DNA from: a virus
Strand: one strand, 5' to 3'
Virus record (IMG/VR): IMGVR_UViG_3300037845_000048
Location: 1-50,903 of that record
DNA: 50,903 nt
Below the pieces are notes generated by a model, which was not told the DNA's origin, made no database searches, and was given only the letters and a program-made list of their open reading frames with translations. The position numbers and the translations under genes are program-made. Positions 15,619 to 17,765 of this stretch are shown here, piece after piece. Numbering within the stretch: the stretch's first letter is position 1; each line of letters starts with the position of its first letter.

Positions 15619-15690
15619 GCGCCTCGACGGGACTCGAACCCGCGCCTCTCCCCTCGAACGGGGAGCGCCCTGCCATTAGGCCACGAGACT
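15619..15690 (-). tRNA. tRNA-like gene, anticodon uncertain
   Basis: On the minus strand the 72 nt fold as a tRNA. The acceptor pairs at 6 of 7 positions (AGTCTCG with CGAGGCG). The D-arm has a 4-bp stem and AATGGCA loop. The T-arm is GCGGG-TTCGAGT-CCCGT. The anticodon arm is odd: CTCCCC-GTTCGA-GGGGAG pairs as 6 bp with a 6-nt loop instead of 5 bp with 7 nt. Standard numbering gives UUC (Glu) with G33; keeping U33 gives UCG (Arg) with a stem mismatch. No CCA encoded. It may be functional, decayed or a tRNA-like site. Confidence 0.6.
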
Positions 15691-15741: not shown

Positions 15742-15762
15742 CTGCCGTGACTGCCACGGTAG
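15742..15762 (-). terminator. hairpin downstream of leftward operon
   Basis: An 8-bp stem (15742-15749 with 15755-15762, one G-T pair) and 5-nt loop, 25 nt beyond the stop of the leftward gene at 15787. Likely its terminator. Confidence 0.5.
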
Positions 15763-15786
15763 CAGCGGCGGTGTCAGCGCGGGACG

Positions 15787-16326
15787 CTACCCTGCGCGCT
15801 CCTCCAGCTCCCCGAGACGCCGCTTGAGCTCCGCGATCTCCTCTTCCGTGCGCTCCCCGCGCTCCATCACCGCGTCCAGCGCCTTCTCCGTGCGGCGCTG
15901 GCGCCCGGCGAGGCGGCGGTTGATCTCCATCTGCTCCGCGAACCCCCGCGCGACCACCTCGAACGCCTTGCGCACCTCCGGGTCGGCGTCGGACAGGTCC
16001 ACGTTCGTGGCCTTCGAGTACGCCATCTCCAATTGCGCCCCGGCGCGGCGCCCATGGGTGTGTGCGAGGCGCAGCTGCCCGTTCACGTCCACGACCCGGT
16101 AGCCCTCGTTGCGCACCCCCTCGATCGCGCGCTTGTCCTTCTCCTCGTGTTCTTCGGCCGCGCGCCGCATGGCGGTGATCATCGCGGAGCGGTGGCGCAC
16201 CGGGTCGAGGCCGAGGGCGTCGGCCATCGCCTGGTAGGTCACGATCCCGCCGACGGGGGTGCCCTTGAGCAGCCGGTAGAGGACCTTCCATCGCGGTTCG
16301 TCGCCAAGCGGTTCGAACGGGCTCAC
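15787..16326 (-). CDS. winged-helix and coiled-coil protein
   Basis: 179 aa, GTG start at 16326 fixed by the GTGA overlap with the upstream gene. Residues ~10-90 (RWKVLYRLLKGTPVGGIVTY then QAMADALGL and a wing-like VNGQLRL) suggest a winged-helix DNA- or RNA-binding fold. The C-terminal ~60 residues are a charged coiled coil rich in Arg and Glu. It is translationally coupled to the RAMP-like gene, so the two probably work together; their shared leader is the pentamer array. Function unknown. Confidence 0.65.
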   Translation of the reverse strand: MSPFEPLGDEPRWKVLYRLLKGTPVGGIVTYQAMADALGLDPVRHRSAMITAMRRAAEEHEEKDKRAIEGVRNEGYRVVDVNGQLRLAHTHGRRAGAQLEMAYSKATNVDLSDADPEVRKAFEVVARGFAEQMEINRRLAGRQRRTEKALDAVMERGERTEEEIAELKRRLGELEERAG

Positions 16327-16928
16327 GACACGTCCTTGACGACGGTCAGCGTGCCCTCGAAGCGCCCGTAGCGCGGGCGCCAGTCCCCGAGGCCGATGAG
16401 GCGCCCGGCGATGTCCACGAGCTGCGTGAGGTCGTCGTAGTCGAGGACTTCTGTGTCGAGGTAGAGCATCGCGGAAGTTCGCCACGAGTTGTCGGAGTTC
16501 TTGGGATCAACCGGAAACTTCGGCCGGGTGCGGATGATGCGCTGCTGTCCGACTTTCGCGGAGGCCTGGAGCATGAAGTTGCCGTCGCGCCACAGCTCGT
16601 CGGGTTCGCGGGGGCCTTTGTAGGCGAGGGGGTTCTCGTCGGTGGTGATGATGACGCCGGAGGTGACTTTGACGCCGAGTTTGCGTTTGCGGCCTGCGTC
16701 GACGAGGCAGCGGAAGATGTTGTCGGCGGGGATGTAGGGGCCGACGGGGCCGTTGTAGAGGCCGCCGAGGAATTCGAGGCGGGCGAGTTCGAGGTAGTCG
16801 TCTTCGGATTTGCTGCGTTTGGCGCTGACTTTCTTCATGGCGCGGGCGAGTTCGTCGAGGGGGTTGGAGAGTCGGGCGTTGTGCATGAGGAGTGGTGCGG
16901 TGCCGGTGATGTCGAGTTTGAGGTCCAT
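16323..16928 (-). CDS. phage protein with RAMP/Cas7-like motifs
   Basis: 201 aa. The ATG at 16928 is chosen over an upstream in-frame start inside the repeats because AGGACGG precedes it. The protein opens with a strand and PLLMHNARLSNPLDELARAM. It then has GPYIPADNIFRCLVDAG, comparable to the 'IPGSSLKGALR' element of RAMP/Cas7 proteins, and ends with a Gly/Arg segment IGLGDWRPRYGRFEG like a RAMP glycine-rich loop. A related hypothetical protein type is widespread in phages. RNA binding is inference; it would fit a neighbouring structured RNA. Confidence 0.7.
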   Translation of the reverse strand: MDLKLDITGTAPLLMHNARLSNPLDELARAMKKVSAKRSKSEDDYLELARLEFLGGLYNGPVGPYIPADNIFRCLVDAGRKRKLGVKVTSGVIITTDENPLAYKGPREPDELWRDGNFMLQASAKVGQQRIIRTRPKFPVDPKNSDNSWRTSAMLYLDTEVLDYDDLTQLVDIAGRLIGLGDWRPRYGRFEGTLTVVKDVS

Positions 16929-17069
16929 CGGGTTCCGTCCTGTAGTGGTGACCATGCCTAGGCCTGCCGGGCCTGGACCTGCCATGCCGAGTCACGCCCG
17001 GCAGAGCCCTGCGGAGCCGAGGGCTGCCCTGCCATGCACGGTCGAGCCATGCGCAGCCCTGCGTGCGTG

Positions 17070-17088
17070 TCCGGGATTCGGACCCGGA
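17070..17088 (-). other. type A hairpin 1 of the array
   Basis: A 6-bp stem (17070-17075 with 17083-17088) and 7-nt loop. On the minus strand the loop is TCCGAAT, close to a tRNA T-loop. GACGGCATA precedes it, as in the second copy. Confidence 0.65.
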
Positions 17089-17338
17089 TATATGCCGTCC
17101 GCGCTGGTGGAACCCATGCCGTGCCCTGCCGGGCGCTGACTCGCCGCGACACGCCGCGCGTTGCCTTGACCCGCCTAGCGTGGCCAAGTCCCGCCAGGCC
17201 ATGCGTTGCCCCGACATGCCGGGACGCGCCTCGCCGGGAGGAACACGCACGTGGTCACGCGCGCACTCCACTCGAAGAGGAACCCAAGCCGGGCCTAGAC
17301 CTGCCCTGACAAGCCATGCCGCGTCCTGCCGTGCCCTG

Positions 17339-17382
17339 CGTGTGTGCCGGGGACTCGGACCCCGGGGTATGCCGTCCACACG
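17339..17382 (-). other. type A hairpin 2 of the array
   Basis: Inner stem 17347-17352 with 17360-17365 and 7-nt loop (TCCGAGT on the minus strand). An outer CGTGTG/CACACG stem (17339-17344 with 17377-17382) encloses it. Stem bases differ from copy 1 while pairing and loop are kept, which is what conserved RNA structure would show. Confidence 0.65.
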
Positions 17383-17473
17383 GTGAAACCCAAGCCCTGC
17401 AATGCCCGACCAAGCCCAGCCGTTGCCACGCCGCGCCATGGCTTGCCCGGCCGGGACTCGCCCCGCCCAGAGA

Positions 17474-17499
17474 CCCGTGCGCGGACCACGCCGCACGGG
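17474..17499 (-). other. type B hairpin of the array
   Basis: A perfect 8-bp stem (17474-17481 with 17492-17499) and 10-nt loop, located between the (C)TTGGTTCC head motif and the next pentamer run. The other type B element (17235-17280) can form a shorter GCGCG/CGTGC stem. Confidence 0.55.
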
Positions 17500-17765
17500 A
17501 ATCACCCGAAGGGGAACCAAGCCGAAGCCAAGCCGGGCCTCGCGGAGCCTAGACCGGCCTCGCCATGCCCCGGCTCGCGCTGCCCGGCGCTGCCCTGCAT
17601 CGCATAGCCGCGCCACACGCCGCCGCGTGTCATTAACCATAGCACCACGCCAGTTCGCACGTGAAACCGCGCGATAAAACACTACGAAACCCACCTGTTG
17701 CCACCCGCGCAACACGCTGACCAGCCGCTACCGCCTGCCTAATCAGCGATGTACCCTCACCATCA

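Follow-up and report, generated by a model that had tools for sequence, protein, structure and literature searches.

A phage-borne VIPR locus with guide tracts separated by tRNA-like and double-hairpin RNA elements

The virus record IMGVR_UViG_3300037845_000048, analysed over its whole length of 50.9 kb (referred to as the window), carries an array of pentamer repeats and structured elements upstream of two overlapping genes, which raises the question which kind of system is encoded there and which role the elements between the repeats could play. In the initial annotation the locus had been read as a structured RNA acting together with a RAMP-like protein. This reading gained support, since the arrangement matches the architecture of VIPR, described in a 2026 preprint (PMC13142463) as a system of the Vipr protein, vrRNAs of alternating GGY and NN with a 3' tail, and an accessory vap gene. 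As a kind of system, VIPR is already described. It recognises double-stranded DNA with a one-base skip, as demonstrated in binding and phage assays and by repression of a reporter, and for Escherichia phage SUSP1 and its kin it was reported that Vipr binds the vrRNA, that the NN pairs set the target and that binding represses transcription (PMC13142463). The window locus is almost certainly a VIPR system and resembles that of SUSP1, which makes it a putative member of type II. The tRNA-like elements between its guides are strongly supported as a conserved RNA structure and moderately supported as a processing signal.

The locus was filed as VIPR because of the profile match of its first gene product to the SUSP1 Vipr structure, the description of VIPR in PMC13142463 and the profile-level relation of its second gene product to Vap. 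The first gene, vipr (P0001; 16323-16928, minus strand), encodes a RAMP (Cas7-like) protein of 201 amino acids (phrog_4652), which showed 33% identity to SUSP1 Vipr (E=3e-35), and its family profile (A1) matched the solved structure PDB 36pp_D, "SUSP1 Vipr protein", with E=1.7e-52. The AlphaFold (AF2) model reached a predicted local distance difference test (pLDDT) score of 94.3, and all PDB fold neighbours with E<=0.001 in Foldseek were type III/VII CRISPR effector complexes, including Csm3/Cas7. The RAMP/Cas7-like character first assumed for this protein is therefore borne out by its predicted fold. Compared to Cas7/Csm3 of CRISPR effectors, the fold is alike with E values down to 6e-5, at an identity of about 10%. 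Vipr comprises a RAMP/RRM-type fold with a glycine-rich loop, and GDWRPR and G188 are invariant. Neither Pfam nor NCBIfam nor PADLOC gave the window protein a name. Related proteins are encoded by phages of Gordonia and Mycobacterium, by coliphages of the Felix O1 type (SUSP1 among them) and on IMG/VR contigs. CRISPR-Cas class 1 was considered and rejected, since pentamer tracts and two genes are found instead of a repeat-spacer array and a cas gene set.

The second gene, vap (vap1-like; 15787-16326, minus strand), encodes 179 amino acids and overlaps vipr by GTGA on the same strand, so that the leftward, GTGA-coupled gene pair was recovered as proposed. The winged-helix domain and long coiled coil ascribed to its product are likewise supported by the structure model (AF2, pLDDT 83.5), which shows a winged helix followed by long helices and gave weak winged-helix matches in the PDB. 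While BLASTP gave no match between the window vap and the second gene of SUSP1, their comparison by hhalign resulted in a probability of 95.1% and E=3.4e-8. Judged from these profiles, the second gene appears to be a distant relative of the SUSP1 accessory protein Vap1, related at profile level only, and would by this distant homology represent the vap component of VIPR, a gene for a putative DNA-interacting protein (vap1 in type II).

The array (16949-17614, minus strand, as are all its parts) consists of five GGYNN tracts with four structured elements between them, which alternate in the order double hairpin, tRNA-like element, double hairpin, tRNA-like element. Tract 1 (17525-17614) comprises 18 pentamers with the NN series GC TA GA AG AG CG AG GA GG AT GA CG TA TC GA CC TT TT, tract 2 (17387-17467) 15 pentamers with one additional base past the ninth, tract 3 (17281-17336) 10 pentamers with the NN series AC AG GC AT TT AG AG TA CC TT, and tract 4 (17111-17235) 24 pentamers, each of these last three being followed by GGGTT. 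Tract 5 (16949-17058) comprises 22 pentamers and ends about 20 nt ahead of the vipr start codon. Some triplets of the tracts deviate from GGY. GGC triplets spaced by multiples of 5 nt formed chains of 12, 7, 7, 14 and 12 members (16956-17624, minus strand), compared to a longest chain of 6 in twenty 50.9-kb Markov shuffles, of which 17 contained no chain of at least 5. Within the array, GGY recurred 25 times at lag 5, whereas shuffles averaged 4.9 and reached at most 15; lags 10 and 15 showed comparable peaks. The pentamer leader with four elements thus stands well above the shuffled background, as its period-5 chains demonstrate, and the initial suggestion that other phages, too, carry such tracts close to this type of protein proved correct: tracts were present in 84 of the 88 fetched loci, nearly all with Vipr homologues.

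By homology to SUSP1, the tracts are taken to be vrRNA guides, and the pentamers would form a guide code of GGY scaffold and NN information beyond mere structure, which further refines the initial reading. Compared to VIPR type II of SUSP1 (NC_028808.2), the Vipr family, the vap1-like second gene and the gene-flanking GGY/NN tracts are alike, whereas the window shows dominant GGC instead of GGT, tRNA-like or double-hairpin separators instead of a pseudoknot tail, and up to 24 repeats instead of 9-16. For vrRNAs in general, 9-16 repeats and an invariable structured 3' tail were described (PMC13142463). Tracts 4 and 5 exceed this number; tract 4 perhaps contains staggered guides.

The tRNA-like elements, 40-45 nt in length, fold into an acceptor-like stem of 5-7 bp, a bulge of 10-11 nt with a D-loop-like GG, a T-stem of 5-7 bp and a TTCGANY T-loop, followed on the 3' side by mostly a purine and then CGC. 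They comprise no anticodon arm, so the full tRNA cloverleaf is not reached. Element 1 (17337-17381) shows a GTGTG/CACAC acceptor, the bulge GACGGCATACC and the T-arm CCGGGG-TCCGAGT-CCCCGG, followed by ACGCA; element 2 lies at 17061-17105. A covariance model (R1) was built from 45 elements, and matched elements 1 and 2, both of which were used in building it, with 53.9 bits (E 3.9e-11) and 49.3 bits (E 7.2e-10), respectively. Searching with this model gave 67 elements at E<0.01 in 29 of 79 loci, and all 70 matches lay on the vipr strand. In a check across the genome G002, for which 150 of 4828 candidates were scored, only three array elements matched.

Since the MAFFT alignment (A2) misplaces some acceptor pairs, the covariance model alignment (A3) was used for the counts. 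In A3, 93.3% of the cells were paired, and 195 two-sided changes, occurring in 10 of the 11 pairs, were found compared to 52.5 after shuffling. The covariation score was 0.727, compared to 0.166 for the shuffled alignment and at most 0.166 with slid partners. Because A3 leans toward structure, a separate loop-seeded test was carried out, and the seeds were taken from the 5' part of the T-loop only, disregarding the stems, so that elements would not be picked by pairing. A full fold of at least 11 bp was obtained for 53 of 96 seeds in array context, but for only 1 of 914 outside. Among the array seeds with a T-stem (n=58), 53 showed the full fold, compared to a mean of 3.5 (maximum 9) after swapping of the 3' arms. 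Effect size and seed test concur. While the stem sequences vary freely, pairing is preserved (11-13 bp in all 54 elements), and conservation is seen in the T-loop, in the GG at one bulge position (43/54) and in the bulge length of 10-11 nt (49/54). The covariation expected of the hairpins holds strongly across relatives for the two tRNA-like elements, whereas the other two turned out to be double hairpins with three copies in all, including a B1-like element in L030 (3290-3323). These double hairpins, B1 (17468-17524; minimum free energy z-score only -0.93) and B2 (17236-17286, overlapping the end of tract 3; z-score -1.01), resemble vrRNA tails.

The Rfam tRNA model did not match the window elements at the gathering score, nor those of 8 loci up to E=1, and ARAGORN called one element, as tRNA-??? 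in L013. On the Vipr tree, the elements were clustered but patchy. Cultured phages that carry them include the Gordonia phages Trine and MakoManhole and Mycobacterium phage LittleE. A tRNA-like element with CCA directly after the acceptor stem was observed in L114 (3630-3672), the Vipr of which shows only 38% identity to that of the window.

How could such elements act? Altogether, it is somewhat probable that the window carries a phage-borne VIPR of the SUSP1 kind with a guide polycistron that is separated by tRNA mimics and cut by host tRNA enzymes. The leader would be transcribed toward vipr as a precursor through the array, which in the actinobacterial clade would be a polycistron with tracts set apart by minimal tRNA mimics. 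Host RNase P could cut each mimic at its 5' border and RNase Z, or a different nuclease, at the 3' border, resulting in guide units. By homology to the SUSP1 system, Vipr subunits would coat each pentamer tract, gripping the GGY bases, the NN pairs would read double-stranded DNA by the one-skip rule and repress a competitor's gene, and Vap may assist at the DNA. As a speculation, Vipr could also bind its own mRNA at the last tract, just ahead of the vipr start codon. A scan for sigma-70 promoters and for terminators gave nothing exceeding chance. RNase P binds to the stack of acceptor stem and T-stem and does not need the remainder of the tRNA for this (PMC11221534), and a T-loop or similar loop appears necessary (PMC4919913). 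The spacing from element to element was 97-174 nt (median 120.5), leaving guide units of mostly 56-113 nt, which is near the length of the ~100-nt vrRNAs (PMC13142463). The more general proposal, that VIPR arrays of actinophages are transcribed as natural tRNA-guide polycistrons in which anticodon-less mimics exploit the RNase P and RNase Z of the host for guide maturation, is about evenly balanced between true and false.

Tandem guides with an RNA separator are also found in the hammerhead-interspersed VIPR arrays (PMC13142463, fig. S19 as named in the main text), in which the separator can drive cutting, but here the separator is tRNA-like; hammerhead ribozymes (Rfam) were found neither in the 28 loci scanned (20 + 8) nor in the window. 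An acceptor-T-arm minihelix as processing signal is likewise known from RNase P minihelix substrates and MALAT1 mascRNA, which are synthetic or eukaryotic, whereas here the putative signals recur between phage guide RNAs. In engineered polycistronic tRNA-gRNA arrays, tRNA modules alternate with guides. Compared to these, the present arrays are natural, their elements lack an anticodon and their processing role is putative.

The main rival explanation is that the tRNA-like element, instead of marking a cutting site, stays on each vrRNA as its 3' tail and is bound there by Vipr or Vap, because structured tails occupy the same place in other clades; the SUSP1 pseudoknot tail, moreover, belongs to the mature vrRNA (PMC13142463). 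However, conservation is concentrated on features that tRNA enzymes read, namely the T-loop, the D-loop-like GG and the length of the stacked stems, whereas the stem sequences vary freely, and the tract adjacent to vipr has no element. A retained tail is thus a possible but rather unlikely explanation. Other tRNA-related ends, such as 3'-end nuclease protection, recruitment of aminoacyl-tRNA synthetase/EF-Tu or a decoy for a host tRNA nuclease, would be expected to use the same tRNA-like features, and the CCA directly after one acceptor in L114 would fit them; since CCA is absent from most copies and the near-constant spacing between guides fits separation, they are regarded as improbable. Tyrosine integrases often use tRNA 3' ends, but an origin of the elements from past integration into tRNA genes (att-like T-arm repeats), or their being degenerate DNA repeats that have no function as RNA, is hardly credible: the changes are compensatory, and the elements keep to one strand, carry a D-loop-like GG and are restricted to arrays. 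The covariation already contradicts this explanation.

Several observations also weigh against cutting of a guide polycistron by host tRNA enzymes. The acceptor of element 2 contains one C-A mismatch, the 3' end of the elements is RCGC and not RCCA, and their single-sequence folding energies are not clearly better than those of shuffles. Two of the four window elements belong to the other hairpin type, some actinophage loci comprise no tRNA-like elements, and no natural target was found for the window guides by the one-skip rule. Searching IMG/VR for the exact 9xNN patterns of guides 1, 4 and 5 gave no match, nor did 13xNN of guide 5, for which up to three mismatches were allowed, in 395 genomes from the actinobacterial class to which G001 belongs; tblastn with decoded peptides gave no credible match. 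All-against-all guide matching among the fetched loci showed a mean of 0.709 at skip 1 compared to 0.701-0.704 at the other skips, a difference too small for use.

Guides and arrays of other loci showed further variation. In the related isolate prophages L086 (2688-2752) and L087 (2691-2765), the first guide is mostly common and the other guides differ, as if guides were replaced singly. For a guide common to L086 and L087 a single match was obtained, located in a HicA gene on a contig of an HP1-like Haemophilus phage, and guide 3 of the window likewise had a single match, in L123. Both were rejected as real targets and taken as chance, because they show little extension past the nine searched pairs and their skipped base does not fall on the wobble position. 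L022 (4614-5010) contains a compact array of seven tracts with separators of only ~12 nt (mostly GGGTTTCRCGG) and no structured spacer. In another VIPR array group (L112-L121), most tracts end in the near-identical tail GGACTCTTTTGAGTTGGTGGCGGTT, and in L012 imperfect repeats rich in GGTC (CCAGGTCTGGGG and similar) extend over a long stretch upstream of the VIPR locus, at about 1401-1610.

In the surroundings of the window locus, the portal and capsid DNA around 18-22 kb is common with Streptomyces phage Dagobah, with shorter stretches common with Gordonia phages. Directly downstream of vap, a tRNA gene (15619-15690, minus strand) was called by ARAGORN as tRNA-??? with a two-base anticodon; its sequence suggests an 8-nt anticodon loop (CGTTCGAG), perhaps of a frameshift-reading or decayed tRNA.

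VIPR, an RNA-guided and CRISPR-related system described only recently, was proposed to be ancestral to CRISPR, and the present locus is one of many members in actinobacterial phages, hosts that are unnamed in the main text of the preprint. The tRNA-like spacer is probably a new variant within VIPR. Its priority is uncertain: the main text (PMC13142463) does not mention tRNA, RNase or actinobacteria, but the supplement may already describe the spacer. Processing of guides by tRNA enzymes was found neither in this main text nor in the literature searched. If the spacers are processing signals, phages would have arrived at the tRNA-guide array that genome engineers built, and the elements of about 41 nt could serve as minimal processing modules. 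The maturation of VIPR guides thereby becomes a directly testable question.
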